Source: Candidatus Poribacteria bacterium (GTDB lineage Bacteria > Poribacteria > WGA-4E > WGA-3G). Taken from it: a stretch of 64,000 nt of DNA. The DNA is taken from the NCBI GenBank assembly GCA_026706025.1, contig JAPOZO010000031.1, forward strand, positions 1 to 64,000, given 5' to 3'. Each line of letters starts with the position of its first letter. Positions within the stretch are counted from its first letter, which is position 1. The notes beneath the pieces are model-generated. The model searched no databases, was not told the DNA's origin, and was given only the letters and a program-made list of their open reading frames with translations. This document shows, piece after piece, positions 42,827 through 49,937 of the stretch. The position numbers and the translations under genes are program-made.

Positions 42827-44962
42827 CTATGAATCTTCAGCCTCAATCCGCACGGCGCAGAATTTTAACTCCGGTTGCTTAGACACCGGATCGAGCGCAG
42901 GATTCGTCACGTAATTCGCATTCGTTTCTGCATGGAAGAGATCGCCCCAATGGAACGGTGTGAAGAGCAAGCCTCGACGAATCGCCTCTGTGACACGTGC
43001 CTTCGCATAACACCTTCCACGTCGCCCAACAAGATAAACCCATTCACCGTCTTCAACATTGTTCTCTATAGCATCGTCCGGATGGATTTCCACAAACGGT
43101 TCCGGATCCTTACGCACCAGCTGCGGCACTTTGCCTGTACGGGTGCGGGTATGCCACTGGCTCTCAATCCGTCCCGTCGTCAATCCGAGCGGGAACGCCT
43201 CATTTACCTCCTCATCGGGTGGCTGATAGACCGGCGTTTTGAACTGTGCCTTTCCAGAATCGGTAAAAAACTTCGTGCGGACATATCGGCGCGCCGTACC
43301 CGGATGCCGTGGATGCGGACAGGGCCAGCGCAATGATGTCTTCGCGAGTCGTTCATTCGTCATTCCCATCTGATCACACGGTGTGCCTGCAGTCAGCATC
43401 CGATATTCGTCCCATACCTCCTCAGCAGTATAGAAGTCGAAATTCCGCTTGTATCCCATCGCTCTCGCGACCTGCGTGAATATCCACCAATCCGGCTTCG
43501 CTTCACCGGGTGGGGTCAGGAACTGATCGCTGCGGACGACGAGCCGTTCGCTGTTTGTCATTGTACCTCGCTTTTCGCCCCACTGCGCCGCGGGGAGCAG
43601 CACGTCCGCATACTCGGCAGTCTCTGTCGGGTAATAGCAATCCTGCACGATGACCAAGTCCGCCCGACGCAACCCTTCTTGCGAAACCTTTGTATCGGGC
43701 ATGCTGACGGCTGGATTCGTGCAGGCGATCCAGAGTGCGCGAACCTTACCCTCAGCCGCCGCCTCAAACATTGGCACTGCCGTCAAACCCGGATTCGGAT
43801 CAATGCTACCCGGTGGTACTCGCCACGCGCCTTCCAGATAGGCACGGTGCATATCATTAGTGACGACACGATAGCCGGGGAGTTGGTGCGACAGATAACC
43901 GACCTCTCTGCCACCCATCGCATTCGGTTGTCCCGTCAACGAAAACGGACCCGCGCCCCTTTTGCCAACTTCACCCAACTGTAGATGTAAGTTGATGAGG
44001 GCGACATTTTTGTCAACGCCGCTTGTGCTCTGATTGGTGCCTTGGCAGTAGAAACTGAGTAACCGACTCGGTTTAGAGAGATATTCAACGATCTCGTCAA
44101 TACGTGCGGGATGAATATCACAGGCAGCGAGCAGCGCGTCTTCGTCTAAACTCTTCAGATGGTTCTCATAAGCACTGAAGTTTTCTGTACTTCTGCGGAT
44201 GAAACGGCTATTGACTCGTCCGACGGCAAGGAGACGCTTGGCAATGAGTTGAAGGAAAGCAACGTCACTCCCGGGCGCGAGCGGCACATGGATATCTGAG
44301 AAATCGGCAGTCTTCGTGCGGCGCGGATCTACGGCGATAATCCGTGTATTTGGCTCAACTGCCCGCCGTTTCCGAATCATCTGGAAGAGCACGGGATGAT
44401 TCACCGCCATGTTCGCACCGATAATCAGGAAAACATCGGCGTGCTGAATATCATCATAGCAGGTAGGAGGTCCATCTGAACCGAACGCCTGCATGTAACC
44501 GACCACCGCGGACGACATACAGAGCCGACTATTTGTGTCTACGTTATTCGTGCGGAGAAATCCTTTGAACAATTTGTTGAACACGTAGGAAGTCTCTGTA
44601 TCCAACTGTCCAGAACCGTAGAGCGCAATAGAATCCTTGCCGTGCTCCAGTCGGATTTCGTGAAGCCGATTTGCCGTGAAAGCGATCGCCTCGTCCCACG
44701 AAACCTGGCGCGGGGGTTCACCACGGCGATCCCGAATCATGGGATACGCGAGTCTACCGTCATGATTTTGAAAGACCTGTTTCAGATGCGCGCCTTTTGG
44801 ACAGAGCATTCCATAATTAGGAGCGACATCATCGTCTGCTGAGATTCTCGTAATTTTATTATCTTGGACGGTTGCTTGGATGACGCAACCGACCCCACAA
44901 TAGGGACATACCGCTTTTCCCGTCGAATTTTGCACTGGTTTCTCCATTGTCAAAGATCTCAT
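42827..44962 (-). CDS. nasC: Assimilatory nitrate reductase catalytic subunit
   Basis: The protein reduces nitrate to nitrite with a molybdopterin guanine dinucleotide cofactor and one Fe4S4 cluster. The start is uncertain: 44962 (MRSLTMEKP) is used, while the open frame upstream lies in a dispersed repeat and is not credible; 44947 (MEKPVQ) is also possible. Visible signatures are the cluster cysteines in CPYCGVGC and GMLCPKG, the Mo-ligand motif RLCMSSAVVGYMQAFGSDG, and NPAVSMPDT. The C-terminus carries the usual MopB beta domain. It is the last gene of the nas cluster, after the transporter. No separate electron-transfer subunit is visible, consistent with ferredoxin-type use, but this is inferred. 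Confidence 0.88.
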   Translation of the reverse strand: MRSLTMEKPVQNSTGKAVCPYCGVGCVIQATVQDNKITRISADDDVAPNYGMLCPKGAHLKQVFQNHDGRLAYPMIRDRRGEPPRQVSWDEAIAFTANRLHEIRLEHGKDSIALYGSGQLDTETSYVFNKLFKGFLRTNNVDTNSRLCMSSAVVGYMQAFGSDGPPTCYDDIQHADVFLIIGANMAVNHPVLFQMIRKRRAVEPNTRIIAVDPRRTKTADFSDIHVPLAPGSDVAFLQLIAKRLLAVGRVNSRFIRRSTENFSAYENHLKSLDEDALLAACDIHPARIDEIVEYLSKPSRLLSFYCQGTNQSTSGVDKNVALINLHLQLGEVGKRGAGPFSLTGQPNAMGGREVGYLSHQLPGYRVVTNDMHRAYLEGAWRVPPGSIDPNPGLTAVPMFEAAAEGKVRALWIACTNPAVSMPDTKVSQEGLRRADLVIVQDCYYPTETAEYADVLLPAAQWGEKRGTMTNSERLVVRSDQFLTPPGEAKPDWWIFTQVARAMGYKRNFDFYTAEEVWDEYRMLTAGTPCDQMGMTNERLAKTSLRWPCPHPRHPGTARRYVRTKFFTDSGKAQFKTPVYQPPDEEVNEAFPLGLTTGRIESQWHTRTRTGKVPQLVRKDPEPFVEIHPDDAIENNVEDGEWVYLVGRRGRCYAKARVTEAIRRGLLFTPFHWGDLFHAETNANYVTNPALDPVSKQPELKFCAVRIEAEDS

Positions 44963-44973
44963 ATTATTTCGTT

Positions 44974-45034
44974 CCGGTGCGGTTAGAATGCAAATCACAT
45001 TTGAGCGAGTACGCCGCAAAACCGCACCTACCGG
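44974..45034. repeat. Dispersed inverted-repeat element, copy 2
   Basis: CCGGTGCGGTTAGAA at the left and AAACCGCACCTACCGG at the right. It is the shorter relative of the element at 23805-23922 and lies just upstream of the nitrate reductase start, reading into its false N-terminal extension. Confidence 0.7.
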
Positions 45035-45048
45035 CTTGGGAATGGACT

Positions 45049-46401
45049 TTAGGATAAAGCACCTGCTTCGGTTTTCAGCCGTTGTCTCTCCGCGAGTGCT
45101 GCATCAAACGCCTTTTGCTCTGCAGCTTGGACTGCGGGCGAGAATCTCACTAACACTGTCCCAAACGAAGCAACTGCAACCATTACACCGAGATACAGCA
45201 AGCCTTGCTGCATCGTGATACTCTCAGACCGGAACAGGAAACCCGCTGCAACGGCACCAGCATTGCCACCCGCGCCGACGATACCGGCTACGGCTCCTAA
45301 CGCCTTTCTATTGATAAACGGAACGATTCCAAACGTCGCGCCTTCCGACATCTGCACGAAAAGACTGAAGACAATCATCGTTCCAACGGCAAGCACGAGC
45401 ACCGCCATTTGTGAGAACACCATCAACAGGATCCCTTCACCTAACAGTCCCACGAAGAGGAACATGACACGCCCGCGGAGTCCCATCCTTTTCGCAAAGA
45501 AATCGGAGAAAAACCCACCGAGACTTCGGGCAAAAATATTCATCAAACCGAACAAGCCAGCGATGAGTCCCGCGGTCTTGACATCCAAGTGGAACTGATC
45601 GTGATAGTAGAGCGCAGCGACGTTGTTAATGGTTAATTCCACCCCGAAACAAGCGGCATAAATAAAGAAAAGTGCCCAGACGCGGTAGTCTTTAATCGCC
45701 AGCATGAAAGATTCCTTGCCTTTGCCCTCTGAAGGTTCAAGTTCACCGCGTTCACGGAGTTCCTTATAGTTTCCATCGGGGGCATCTTGGGTCAAGAAGT
45801 AATAAGCAAACCCAGTGATAAACAGCGCGATACCGGGAACAATCATCGCCAATCGCCATCCGAGGAATTCGCTCACACCGAAGCTGAGAATAGCCGTAAA
45901 AATGAGCGGCATGACCATCTGCGTAACACCGCCGCCGAGGTTCCCCCACCCGGCTGTCGTCGCATTCGCTGTGCCGATAACATTCGGTGCGAACATCACC
46001 GACGTGTGATACTGCGTGATGACGAACGACGCACCGATTGCACCGATTGCCAGTCGGAACAGCAGAAACGATTCGTAATTCTGAGCGAGTCCGATACCCA
46101 TGACAGGCAGCGAACCGAGGATCAGGAGCCATGTATACGCCTTTCGGGAACCGATCTTATCGCAGAGCGGTCCGATTAAGACACGCACCAGCACCGTAAT
46201 TGCCACAGAGGCGATAATCGTATTACCGATCTGTGTTTTTGTTAACATTAGGTCTTCGCGCACAATCGCCATAAGCGGAGCAATCCCAAACCAACCGAAA
46301 AATGCGAGGAAGAACGCGAACCATGTGGTATGAAAGGTTCGCATCTGGATCGTTTTTAAGCTAAAGAGATTTATCCGTGTTGCTTTATTTTTTATATCCA
46401 T
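45049..46401 (-). CDS. Nitrate/nitrite transporter (MFS, NarK/NasA type)
   Basis: The 450-residue protein has about twelve membrane segments. The nitrate-signature segments are visible: FFLAFFGWFGIAPLMA, GWGNLGGGVTQMVMPLI and the second-half GIVGAGGNAGAVAAGFLF. It brings nitrate into the cell for the reductases beside it. AAGGAA lies upstream of the ATG. It sits between nirA and the nitrate reductase gene on the same strand, so the three probably share a transcript. Confidence 0.9.
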   Translation of the reverse strand: MDIKNKATRINLFSLKTIQMRTFHTTWFAFFLAFFGWFGIAPLMAIVREDLMLTKTQIGNTIIASVAITVLVRVLIGPLCDKIGSRKAYTWLLILGSLPVMGIGLAQNYESFLLFRLAIGAIGASFVITQYHTSVMFAPNVIGTANATTAGWGNLGGGVTQMVMPLIFTAILSFGVSEFLGWRLAMIVPGIALFITGFAYYFLTQDAPDGNYKELRERGELEPSEGKGKESFMLAIKDYRVWALFFIYAACFGVELTINNVAALYYHDQFHLDVKTAGLIAGLFGLMNIFARSLGGFFSDFFAKRMGLRGRVMFLFVGLLGEGILLMVFSQMAVLVLAVGTMIVFSLFVQMSEGATFGIVPFINRKALGAVAGIVGAGGNAGAVAAGFLFRSESITMQQGLLYLGVMVAVASFGTVLVRFSPAVQAAEQKAFDAALAERQRLKTEAGALS

Positions 46402-46515: not shown

Positions 46516-48099
46516 TTACCGCCGTGAAAGGTAAGGGACGAGTCCTTCAAGCACTTGCGGTAAATCGTCACAAGGTACATTTTCCAATACTTTGGGCGCG
46601 ACTTTCGGGTTTGCACCAGCATCTCCTTTGAGGAACACGTCCACCGCATCGGTAACAACACCATCAATCTTAATTCTCTTACCAAGCAGTCCAATATCAG
46701 CGGCAGCGTGATTGCCACACCCGTTCGGACAGCCAGACCAATGTATCGTGAGCGGTTTCGTATTGCCAAGCCTCGCTTCCAAATGCCGGATCGCTTCCAT
46801 CGCGCGTTCTTTCGTTTCAATCAGTGAGAAGTGGCAGTAGTCGATACCTGTGCAACTCACCATACCGCGCATGACTTCCGAAGGATCATAGCGGAGTTCG
46901 TGTAGGAGCGGTTCTGCGGTTAATTCTCCGAGCTTTGCGTCCGGTACGTTGGTAATAATCAGGTTCTGTCCCTGCGTGAGACGGATATCGCCGTTGCCAT
47001 ATTCCTCCGCGAGCCGAGCGACCTCGAAAAGTTGTGTTGTCGTAATACGTCCGACAGGGACAACAAGCCCGACGTAGTTGAGATGTGGCTGTTTCTGTGA
47101 GAAGATACCGGTATGGTCAGTCTTCTTCTTCCCGCGCGCATCTTTACCCGCCCTCAGGAGCGGTTGTTTTCTATGCCGACGACTTTCTAATTCTTCCCGG
47201 AATTTTTCTACACCCCAGTCTGCAATCAGAAAAGCGAGGCGAGATTTATTACGAGCCGTCCGAGGTCCGTGATCTCGAAAAATTAGCGTAATATCCGCAC
47301 ACAAAACCGAGGCTTCCTCAGGGATAATAAACACATCAAGTGGTTGTGCCAGTGTGTACCCCCCAGACCCCATCTTTCCGCCAACAGCGACGTTAAAGCC
47401 TTTTGTCTCCTGACCATCAATCTCCTTTACCGCAGGCGTAAGCGCGATGTCTTGTGAGGCGGTATGCGTACAGTTATCCAAACATCCCGTGATACCGACA
47501 TTAAACTTGCGTGGAATATCGGTGAATTCCTTGTTGCCGACAATGAGGTTCGTGAATTCCCTGCCGACATGCGAAGCGTCAAACAATTCGTTCGGCGTTA
47601 ACCCAGCGACGGGGCACCCAATTACACCGCGAATGTTATCGAAACCGGTTTGGAGTGAACCTAAACCGACCGCTTCCAGCCGATTCCAGATGTGCTGAAC
47701 ATTTTCAATCGTGAAACCGCGGAGCTGTATCTGCTGACGCGTCGTGAGATCCACAAATCCCGGTCCGTGTGCCTCACTGATTTCAGCGATGGCGCGGAAC
47801 TGTTCGGCGTTGCTAAAACCGCTGGACATGCGGAGCCGCATCATAAATGCCCCAGGGGTCTGTTTTCGGTAAAAGACACCTACCCATTTGAGTCGGTCGC
47901 GTTCGTTTGCCGGAATAGATTCCCAACCGTTCCGAATGTAGTTCGGAATGTCGTTGATCACCTCAAGCCCGTTTTTTTCTTGTTTGAGGACCTCTGCGGC
48001 GTTTATCTTGGGCTTCCTTTTTTTCGCAGCCGCCGTTGGTGCTGAACGCACCTTTCGACTTGCAGGAATAACTTTCTTTTTTGATCTTGATTCGTTCAC
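46516..48099 (-). CDS. nirA: Ferredoxin-type nitrite reductase
   Basis: NirA reduces nitrite to ammonia with siroheme and an Fe4S4 cluster, using ferredoxin. The start is GTG at 48099 (VNESRSKKK), seven bases after AAGGAGG; a longer frame from 48129 contains that ribosome site. This gives 527 residues. Cluster/siroheme cysteines are in VSCTGIDYCHF and SGCPNGCGNH (C426, C432, C467, C471 in the longer count). Substrate region signatures TTRQQIQLRG and GITGCLDNCTH are present. It is the first gene after a leader with a terminator. Confidence 0.9.
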   Translation of the reverse strand: MNESRSKKKVIPASRKVRSAPTAAAKKRKPKINAAEVLKQEKNGLEVINDIPNYIRNGWESIPANERDRLKWVGVFYRKQTPGAFMMRLRMSSGFSNAEQFRAIAEISEAHGPGFVDLTTRQQIQLRGFTIENVQHIWNRLEAVGLGSLQTGFDNIRGVIGCPVAGLTPNELFDASHVGREFTNLIVGNKEFTDIPRKFNVGITGCLDNCTHTASQDIALTPAVKEIDGQETKGFNVAVGGKMGSGGYTLAQPLDVFIIPEEASVLCADITLIFRDHGPRTARNKSRLAFLIADWGVEKFREELESRRHRKQPLLRAGKDARGKKKTDHTGIFSQKQPHLNYVGLVVPVGRITTTQLFEVARLAEEYGNGDIRLTQGQNLIITNVPDAKLGELTAEPLLHELRYDPSEVMRGMVSCTGIDYCHFSLIETKERAMEAIRHLEARLGNTKPLTIHWSGCPNGCGNHAAADIGLLGKRIKIDGVVTDAVDVFLKGDAGANPKVAPKVLENVPCDDLPQVLEGLVPYLSRR

Positions 48100-48162
48100 C
48101 TTTGAACCTCCTTCAGAAATAAATGGCATTCAAACGGATACATAACCTGAATATAAAGACAG

Positions 48163-48210
48163 AAAAAAAGGCATCTATCGGCAAGCACAATGCTTCGCCA
48201 AATAGACACC
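48163..48210 (-). terminator. Leader terminator (attenuator) upstream of nirA
   Basis: Read on the minus strand, GGTGTCTAT and ATAGATGCC form a 9-base stem (two G-U pairs) enclosing a second paired segment GGCGAAGC/GCTTGCC, followed by seven T (48169-48163). This is a textbook intrinsic terminator about 65 bases before the nirA start. A competing hairpin AGACACAGGTGTCT (48217-48204) uses its 5' arm, and GTCTGGAACCAGAC (48227-48214) competes with that one. This gives a switchable leader. The adjacent gene encodes an ANTAR RNA-binding regulator. Confidence 0.85.
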
Positions 48211-48261
48211 TGTGTCTGGTTCCAGACCGTCTTTGGTTGGAATCGTCGTTATTATCTATTA

Positions 48262-48299
48262 TGCCTAATAACACAAAACATATTCATCTGTATTAGGCA
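48262..48299 (-). promoter_or_regulatory. Upstream leader hairpin of the nirA transcript
   Basis: TGCCTAATA and TATTAGGCA pair as a perfect 9-base stem with a 20-base loop. It lies between the regulator gene and the attenuator. It could be part of the ANTAR target region, but the usual hexanucleotide loops were not clearly found. Confidence 0.5.
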
Positions 48300-48376
48300 A
48301 AATCGGTAATTCTCATGTGTACGTTTCGTTCATCCTTGAACATACGTACTTTCAAAGCGGAAATGGATATATCCGC

Positions 48377-48979
48377 CTATAATTTATTTGTCAACACTTC
48401 TGCAACCGACAGAATATCCTGCGAGACTTCTGCGAGCCGCTTTCTGCGATTCATCGCCATTTTTCGTAAAATTTGATACGCCTGCGCTTCATTACAGCCA
48501 CGTTGCTGGGCGACAAGCTCCTTTGCACGTTCAATGATTTTGCGTTCAGCAAGGTTTGTTTTTGTCTTTTCGAGTTCCTCTTGCAATGCCCGGAATTCAT
48601 AAAATCGAGCGATGGCTGCCTCGATGATCGTTTTAACTCTGGCACCGGTGAGTTTCCCGACCGCATACGCCGACACACCCGCACGTGTCGCCGCCTGAAT
48701 CGTCTCCGACCGTTCATCGCGCGAAAACATGACCGTCGGACACGGATAGTCCTCATGAAGTGCCGCAACCCAATCGAGTATTGCGTGCCCCGGAAAATCG
48801 ACACCGATCAGTATGATGTCCGGCTTTATGCGTGAGACTTGATCCGCCAAACCTTCCTGTAGACGCAGCGGCACAGCGACGTTGTACCGACTCGCTTCCA
48901 GAATTTGGACTAACGAAGTTGCACGCTCTGGGTTGTTATCAATGATTAAAACGCTCGGTGTTGTGGTGCTTGCTCCCAT
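48377..48979 (-). CDS. nasT: NasT-like ANTAR antiterminator
   Basis: The 200-residue protein starts at ATG 48979 (MGASTTTPS), with GAAGGG upstream; a longer TTG frame from 49027 is less likely. It has a receiver-like domain (SVLIIDNNPERATSLV, VDFPGHAILDWV, VMFSRDERSETIQAATRAGVSAY) and a C-terminal ANTAR domain (ERKIIERAKELVAQQRGCNEAQAYQILRKMAMNRRKR). The phospho-acceptor position reads ILIGVDFPG, with G where a receiver has D, so it is a pseudo-receiver. NasT proteins bind leader RNA to block termination in nitrate genes. No NasS partner is in the window. Confidence 0.82.
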   Translation of the reverse strand: MGASTTTPSVLIIDNNPERATSLVQILEASRYNVAVPLRLQEGLADQVSRIKPDIILIGVDFPGHAILDWVAALHEDYPCPTVMFSRDERSETIQAATRAGVSAYAVGKLTGARVKTIIEAAIARFYEFRALQEELEKTKTNLAERKIIERAKELVAQQRGCNEAQAYQILRKMAMNRRKRLAEVSQDILSVAEVLTNKL

Positions 48980-49268
48980 CTGCGACCCTTCCGAAGTTAA
49001 TGCCTTGTAAATGTGCTGAAATGACAAGGCATGTTAACCTTACATATCAGCATTAGCAAGAACCTTGCCAAAAGTCCGAATTATTGATTTCCGTAGGGCG
49101 CGTAAGGTTTCTGGAAAATGAAAGCTGCAGAGAGCGTCCGCGGGGTGCGAATTTTTGCCTATTTTTTTAGCAGAATTTACGCGTATTTTCCTATTTTTTG
49201 GGCAATACAGAAAAAGAAGACTGGAAGATTGGAGGAAGAGAAAACCGGAAATGGGATTACAACGCCTT

Positions 49269-49937
49269 TCACGCGTTTACGCGTCGGACGGTGTAGATAG
49301 AAACTCGGTTAGTCCTTCCGTCCAACTTAACAGGATAAATAGATTTCTGATAGGTAAAGCCGTTGTCATTGAGCAATTTGAAAAATCCGATAGCGTTCTT
49401 TCGGTTTGGCTCGGAAAAGAGGGCAACACCGTTTGGGGTAAGGTAATCTTGAAGTAAAGTCGCAATCGGTTGCCAGTGGTGTTCTTCATAGATAACATCG
49501 GCGGCGAGAATATAGCGGAATTTGCAGTTGAAGCAGGGCGTATTCCAATCCATCTGGACGAAATCGGCTCTCTTTTCAACGCCGTTTTGTTCCGCGTTGT
49601 GGTGCGCGAAGCGGAGTGCTTCGCGTTCCGCGTCCGTGAAAACCACTTTCGCATCCATCCGACATGCGACAATTCCTGTGAGTCCAAACCCACACCCGAT
49701 CTCAAGAGTCGGTGCTTCTCTGAGTTGTGCGCCAAGTGTCTCTACATGGCGAGCAAGACCGATAGAAGATTCCCAGAGATAGGTCCAGTAAGGGAGATAG
49801 AGTTTACCTTCAGTGTCCTCTCGACTGAGTTGTTCGAGGAACCAATCGGGTTCTTCTATAAGTGTGAGTTGTACGCGACCGGTCTTCAACTTAACGACGG
49901 TACTTGTGAGGGGGTAGTCTCGTAATTGGGTGTCCAT
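49269..49937 (-). CDS. Class I methyltransferase (METTL21-like)
   Basis: The 222-residue protein has SAM-binding motif LEIGCGFGLTGIVACRM, acidic loop FTDAEREALRF, and ILAADVIYEEHHW followed by the distinctive ESSIGLARHVETL segment. These match the lysine-methyltransferase-like METTL21/Nnt1 group, which methylate proteins. Substrate unknown. It is upstream of the NasT-like gene on the same strand with about 240 bases between, and could be unrelated. Confidence 0.75.
   Translation of the reverse strand: MDTQLRDYPLTSTVVKLKTGRVQLTLIEEPDWFLEQLSREDTEGKLYLPYWTYLWESSIGLARHVETLGAQLREAPTLEIGCGFGLTGIVACRMDAKVVFTDAEREALRFAHHNAEQNGVEKRADFVQMDWNTPCFNCKFRYILAADVIYEEHHWQPIATLLQDYLTPNGVALFSEPNRKNAIGFFKLLNDNGFTYQKSIYPVKLDGRTNRVSIYTVRRVNA

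Follow-up and report, generated by a model that had tools for sequence, protein, structure and literature searches.

What is the stretch of DNA between a nasT-like gene and nirA in a poribacterial genome for: does it form an RNA switch and, if so, what sets that switch? A first-pass annotation of the 64-kb stretch analysed here (the window; contig G000:C31 of a 6.27 Mb genome) had described a minus-strand leader with three overlapping hairpins, and had proposed nitrate-controlled attenuation through the ANTAR protein encoded next door. We found that the switchable leader is real and that this interpretation was correct in outline, but that the anatomy given for it was wrong and that the nitrate-controlled step is unproven. 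Every one of the nearest named relatives of the source genome is a MAG of Candidatus Poribacteria, an uncultured bacterial phylum whose best-known habitat is marine sponges. Our literature search returned only a general receiver-domain survey and no description of NasT/ANTAR antitermination in this phylum; the annotation, too, had remarked that the lineage is poorly described in this respect.

Gene Content of the Locus

The genes of the locus are arranged on the minus strand in the order nasT, a 277-nt leader (48376-48100), nirA, a NarK-family transporter gene and a nasA-like reductase gene. The features outside the leader RNA itself are as follows:

48377-48979, minus strand: nasT-like gene (200 aa), with an Asp-less CheY-like receiver and, at the C-terminus, an ANTAR RNA-binding domain (PF00072, E 5.1e-8; PF03861, E 2.4e-17, over the cut-off)
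48107-48113, minus strand: AAGGAGG, ribosome-binding site of nirA, read from the sequence
46516-48099, minus strand: nirA, ferredoxin-nitrite-reductase-like, first gene after the leader, GTG start at 48099 (PF01077, PF03460)
45049-46401, minus strand: NarK-family nitrate/nitrite MFS transporter (PF07690; TIGR00886 at 306 bits, under the cut-off of 312)
42827-45019, minus strand: nasA-like molybdopterin oxidoreductase of the NasA/NasC type (PF00384, PF01568, PF04879)

The nasT start was placed at an ATG at 48979, with an alternative TTG at 49027. The best NCBIfam match of nirA was PRK09566, ferredoxin--nitrite reductase, at 543 bits and so below the cut-off of 594. Fdh-alpha and NasC were the best matches of the nasA-like protein, neither reaching its cut-off, and judging by context the gene encodes the catalytic subunit of an assimilatory nitrate reductase.

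Two further features of this neighborhood may be mentioned. A Methyltransf_16-type methyltransferase gene (window 49269-49937, minus strand) is conserved as the immediate upstream neighbor of nasT in almost every member of the genus; we know of no link between it and nitrate use. Just past nasT (window 48348-48318, minus strand), a palindrome or hairpin is conserved near GTACGTATGTTCAAGGATGAACGAAACGTAC; most members of the genus retain TGTTCAAGG.TGAAC there, which could represent an operator or a further structured RNA.

Structure of the Leader RNA

The letters, the strand, the seven-T run (48169-48163) and the mutual overlap of the hairpins are as first described. The inverted repeats GTCTGG-AA-CCAGAC and AGACAC-AG-GTGTCT are also present, but loops of 2 nt are impossible in RNA, and the realistic hairpins are GTCT[GGAACC]AGAC and AGAC[ACAGGT]GTCT. 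The latter corresponds to P2 of the ANTAR motif. The account of three hairpins was nevertheless incomplete, as the key P1 hairpin (48242-48220) had been overlooked. It appears in the centroid fold, and the 101-nt leader region folds 3.7 s.d. more stably than its shuffles (z = -3.7). The revised elements are:

48220-48242, minus strand: P1 hairpin TTCCAACC[AAAGAC]GGTCTGGAA, hexaloop with A1 and G4 (centroid fold; covariation; AAnGnn loops in 32/32 canonical leaders)
48204-48217, minus strand: P2 hairpin AGAC[ACAGGT]GTCT, hexaloop with A1 and G4 (100% of cells paired; A1/G4 loop in 42/42 leaders)
48163-48211, minus strand: intrinsic terminator with a 10-bp basal stem (AGGTGTCTAT/ATAGATGCCT), an apical stem and seven T (99.7% of cells paired, 30 sequences)
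48214-48227, minus strand: GTCT[GGAACC]AGAC, in which the P1 3' arm may pair with the P2 5' arm as a competing fold (minimum-energy fold; zero compensatory changes)

ANTAR target RNAs have been defined by dual A1/G4 hexaloops together with a terminator overlap (PMC3369931). The leader has two stem-loops, each with 3 bp or more and a hexanucleotide loop carrying A1 and G4 (AAAGAC in P1, ACAGGT in P2), and the end of the P2 loop together with the P2 3' arm (48211-48204) doubles as the 5' arm of the terminator, so that P2 overlaps and excludes it. The P1-P2 linker is short, 2-3 nt when counted from the full P1 stem and about 8 nt from its top three pairs; curated sets span 2-25 nt, whereas eut leaders, with 5-12 nt, have longer linkers than the poribacterial ones past the full stem. 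The terminator at this locus has a predicted energy of -22 kcal/mol, and about 60 nt separate its T-run from the nirA start.

When both strands of the 64-kb window were scanned for two A1/G4 hexaloop hairpins with a terminator overlapping the second one, the leader was the single site returned, against 0.025 expected (mean of 40 Markov surrogates). No Rfam family matched the leader, even at E up to 1.

Conservation and Covariation in Relatives

We gathered 42 distinct poribacterial leaders and computed pairing statistics on 30 distinct aligned sequences. The first reading withstood the check set for it, as competing stems are conserved in relatives: P2 with A1/G4 and the overlapping terminator are found in 42/42 leaders, while canonical P1, with its AAnGnn loop, is found in 32 of them, namely all those without the insertion described below. 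Pairing of P1 and P2 holds in 89.7% of cells, compared with at most 53% in slid registers, and 15 cells are compensatory versus 4.8 in shuffles (0 of 500 shuffles reached 15), bearing in mind that the leaders share ancestry and that such counts and cells represent non-independent events. All four P2 pairs form in 30/30 aligned sequences, with the outer pair changing among A-U, G-C and G-U. Pairing of the terminator is kept at 99.7% while the length of the whole element ranges from about 45 to 90 nt across the 42 leaders. Moreover, changes in the base common to P2 and the terminator are matched by both of its partners (17 leaders with G-C-G, 12 with A-T-A, 13 with G-U pairs, none broken). This three-way covariation is direct comparative evidence that two structures exclude each other.

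These data bear on a simpler explanation, in which the seven-T hairpin would be a plain terminator of nasT, with the nirA promoter downstream of it and no switch at all. Such an arrangement would fit both the location of nasT, immediately ahead of the leader on the same strand, and the distance left between the T-run and nirA; a sigma-70 consensus scan placed no minus-strand promoter on either side of the terminator. A by-eye inspection of the leader for a sigma-54 promoter likewise gave no match with correct spacing. However, a plain terminator leaves unexplained the conserved P1 and P2, the invariant A1/G4 positions and a base whose changes track those of two alternative partners. Additionally, in two loci (L026 and L039) the whole leader unit lies about 390-550 nt away from nasT with every part retained together, and a leader relic in a genome without nasT (G047) has a broken P1 loop and has lost its T-run. 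We therefore regard the plain terminator as very unlikely.

A second explanation keeps the three nested hairpins of the first-pass annotation (GTCTGG/CCAGAC, AGACAC/GTGTCT and the terminator) as a 1-2-3 switch that attenuates independently of any protein. The minimum-energy fold of 48250-48150 does pair GGTCTGG with CCAGAC beside the terminator, and this pairing could be an anti-antiterminator. Yet no cells of this first hairpin changed on both sides, and its lower pairs break down in distant leaders and are missing in L001-L003, so it did not hold up as a conserved switch element; it is an accessory alternative fold at best. The empty Rfam search gave no known riboswitch either, and the invariant bases of the P1 and P2 hexaloops are those required by ANTAR proteins (PMC3369931). 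A protein-independent switch seems to us extremely improbable.

Probable Antitermination by NasT

The nasT product combines an N-terminal receiver fold with a C-terminal ANTAR domain, and it shares 36-43% identity over its full length with NasT of other phyla. Its relatives of solved structure include the Rv1626-type antiterminator 1s8n, the response regulator 6wsh, NasR and AmiR. In NasR, alanine mutants of R340, R366 and the aromatic W362 abolish RNA binding (PMC7496416); the corresponding positions in the NasT encoded here are R147, R173 and the likewise aromatic Y169.

nasT and intact nirA occur together. ANTAR genes occur in single copy in each of 40 of the 60 related genomes; in 40 genomes the nasT reading frame is open and intact, and the sole ANTAR gene found in the source genome is the one adjoining the leader. 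nirA (at least 89% identity) is present in 36 genomes, and nasT accompanies it in 36/36. The genus member without nirA at this identity (G002) also lacks nasT, in a genome that is only 86% complete. Within the genus, each genome had a single strong match to a covariance model built from the poribacterial leaders, located beside nasT. The model also matched gammaproteobacterial nasT loci (L076, E 6e-6; L075, E 4e-4), whose P1 and P2 letters are nearly identical to the poribacterial ones, and a generic scan detected dual hexaloops plus terminator at 17/37 nasT loci from other phyla. Most of the weak model matches inspected as further ANTAR sites in the genomes were intragenic and chance-like, and were rejected, one other being the relic in G047. 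A search of viral_contigs gave no match.

Anatomy, conservation and co-occurrence thus support an ANTAR-dependent attenuation leader of an assimilatory nitrite/nitrate operon beside a NasT-like gene, as the annotation had suggested. We consider it highly probable that the leader attenuates transcription as a switch of the ANTAR/NasT class, with NasT binding and read-through taken by analogy from characterised relatives; the protein encoded next door probably grips the leader RNA and averts early termination. While NasT is inactive, the transcript would fold into the terminator (48211-48163) and the polymerase would halt ahead of nirA. Active NasT would bind, as a dimer, to P1 and P2 at their A1/G4 hexaloops; P2 would then take 48211-48204 from the terminator stem, no terminator would form and nirA-narK-nasA would be transcribed. 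This scheme follows EutV, NasR and the NasT proteins of Paracoccus and Bradyrhizobium (PMC3369931, PMC7496416, PMC3795266, PMC6759348).

One of the closest likenesses is with the NasS-NasT systems that act on nas/nir/nos leaders of Paracoccus denitrificans, Bradyrhizobium diazoefficiens and Pseudomonas, where a receiver-ANTAR NasT also adjoins its target and a dual A1/G4 hexaloop leader overlaps a terminator. In B. diazoefficiens, nirA is a predicted direct NasT target as well (PMC6759348). The eut leaders of Enterococcus faecalis, controlled by EutV-EutW, similarly have two small A1/G4-hexaloop hairpins with P2 and the terminator mutually exclusive (PMC3369931), and NasR of Klebsiella oxytoca shares with the poribacterial protein the RNA motif class (nasF leader), a nitrate/nitrite assimilation operon and the conserved RNA-binding patch. 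The leader therefore belongs to the known NasT/ANTAR antitermination class and, as an RNA switch, is an ordinary member of it; its description widens the range of this well-defined RNA-protein mechanism to include Candidatus Poribacteria.

Missing Signal Inputs

The poribacterial system departs from its relatives in how a signal might reach NasT. In NasS-NasT systems, NasT is sequestered by an NrtA-like nitrate-binding partner, and at most of the loci examined in other phyla a NasS or NrtA-like relative follows nasT. This is not so in Poribacteria: a NasS query gave no match at the locus or elsewhere in the 60 related genomes, although 8 of 9 control genomes were positive at E 5e-62 or better. 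A search with Pfam NMT1_2 returned one weak partial match, a 429-aa frame in the source genome distant from nasT.

Phosphorylation, by which EutW activates EutV, also lacks its target, since the receiver phospho-acceptor Asp is replaced by Gly in 40/40 poribacterial NasT copies; the SPDRDTLE stretch that other NasT proteins commonly carry is lost as well. Whereas NasR senses nitrate through its own NIT domain, the poribacterial protein consists of receiver and ANTAR only, and PF08376 was not found in a search made without a positive control. AmiR, acting on amiE of Pseudomonas aeruginosa, offers a further comparison as an ANTAR protein with an Asp-less pseudo-receiver and phosphorylation-free control, and Asp-less receivers are enriched among ANTAR proteins in general (PMC4395418). 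The loss of Asp alone is for this reason not unusual. What is unusual is that both known controls, NasS and the phospho-Asp, have been lost together. The novelty of the locus thus lies in signalling, where the known inputs are gone, while the RNA mechanism was already known. AmiR is restrained by the ligand-binding protein AmiC, and no partner of such a binding-protein type was found in Poribacteria.

Because NasS was not detected and the phospho-Asp is Gly, we do not accept nitrate control, the last step of the first-pass reading, as shown; given these two absences, NasT might even be constitutive.

Leader Variants and Relics

In 10 of the 42 leaders (L018, L013, L015, L019, L024, L029, L031, L035, L036 and L037) the P1 3' arm is split, just upstream of P2, by a segment at most 39 nt long, and P2 and the terminator are intact there. 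As this insertion interrupts P1, the full two-hairpin motif is not universal. The segment contains a palindromic repeat of about 29 nt, with the palindrome ACAAATTGTGCCTTGATGGCACAATTTGT. A second copy lies elsewhere in G024, with weaker copies in G024 and G021 (G024 contigs C218 and C190), which indicates a dispersed repeat. Loop position 1 is also G instead of A in four of the 10. A reading of these leaders as a variant P1 with a pentaloop was rejected, because the alignment reveals an insertion.

Other changes affect the genes. In G019 (L066/L039), where an insertion separates nasT from the leader, nirA is a pseudogene of which only a short piece with a stop is left, and nasA is apparently truncated; nasT and the ANTAR leader, by contrast, remain intact. 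In G047, which belongs to another family and has no detected nasT, the leader relic (L136:2042-2084, contig G047:C21) stands between two ammonium-transporter genes, and its P1 loop starts with G, not A. A truncated nasT remnant was observed at L101:6004-6342 beside the usual methyltransferase gene, with the nir/nas operon missing.

Together with the missing NasS and the Asp to Gly change in all homologues, several of these cases (the 10 interrupted P1, four with A1 to G; the truncated nasT of L101 without its operon; the nirA pseudogene of G019) could suggest a former ANTAR switch that is now decaying, with a constitutive or inert NasT that antiterminates always or never. Nevertheless, both hexaloops and all stems are kept in 32 leaders, the RNA-binding patch of NasT is retained and its frame remains open in 40 genomes, when loss would be expected for a purely constitutive regulator plus terminator. 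We thus consider decay unlikely.

Under the preferred reading, a functional attenuation switch of the ANTAR/NasT class, we tentatively propose, with somewhat less than even confidence, that NasT switches without NasS or phosphorylation, its pseudo-receiver being run by another partner or by direct binding of a small molecule, and that one subclade has rebuilt P1 around an inserted dispersed palindrome. If true, this would be a signalling mode not described so far for nitrate-assimilation leaders. The locus poses in any event the question of how a NasT lacking both nitrate-sensing partner and phosphorylation site is controlled, and the 42 natural variants, including the 10 with interrupted P1 and one relic leader after nasT loss, make the requirement for P1 testable.

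A different arrangement was found in the family of L073, L083 and L002, in which nasT lies behind an ammonium-transporter gene and a canonical leader precedes nirB. Upstream of nasT itself (L073:5887-5990, L083:5886-5990, and in L002), a P2-like AxxGxx hairpin overlaps a T-tailed terminator, with no clear P1. In the f4 family the covariance model additionally flags a P2-plus-terminator element ahead of nasT. In L073, L083 and L002, such an element ahead of nasT may reflect autoregulation of the gene.
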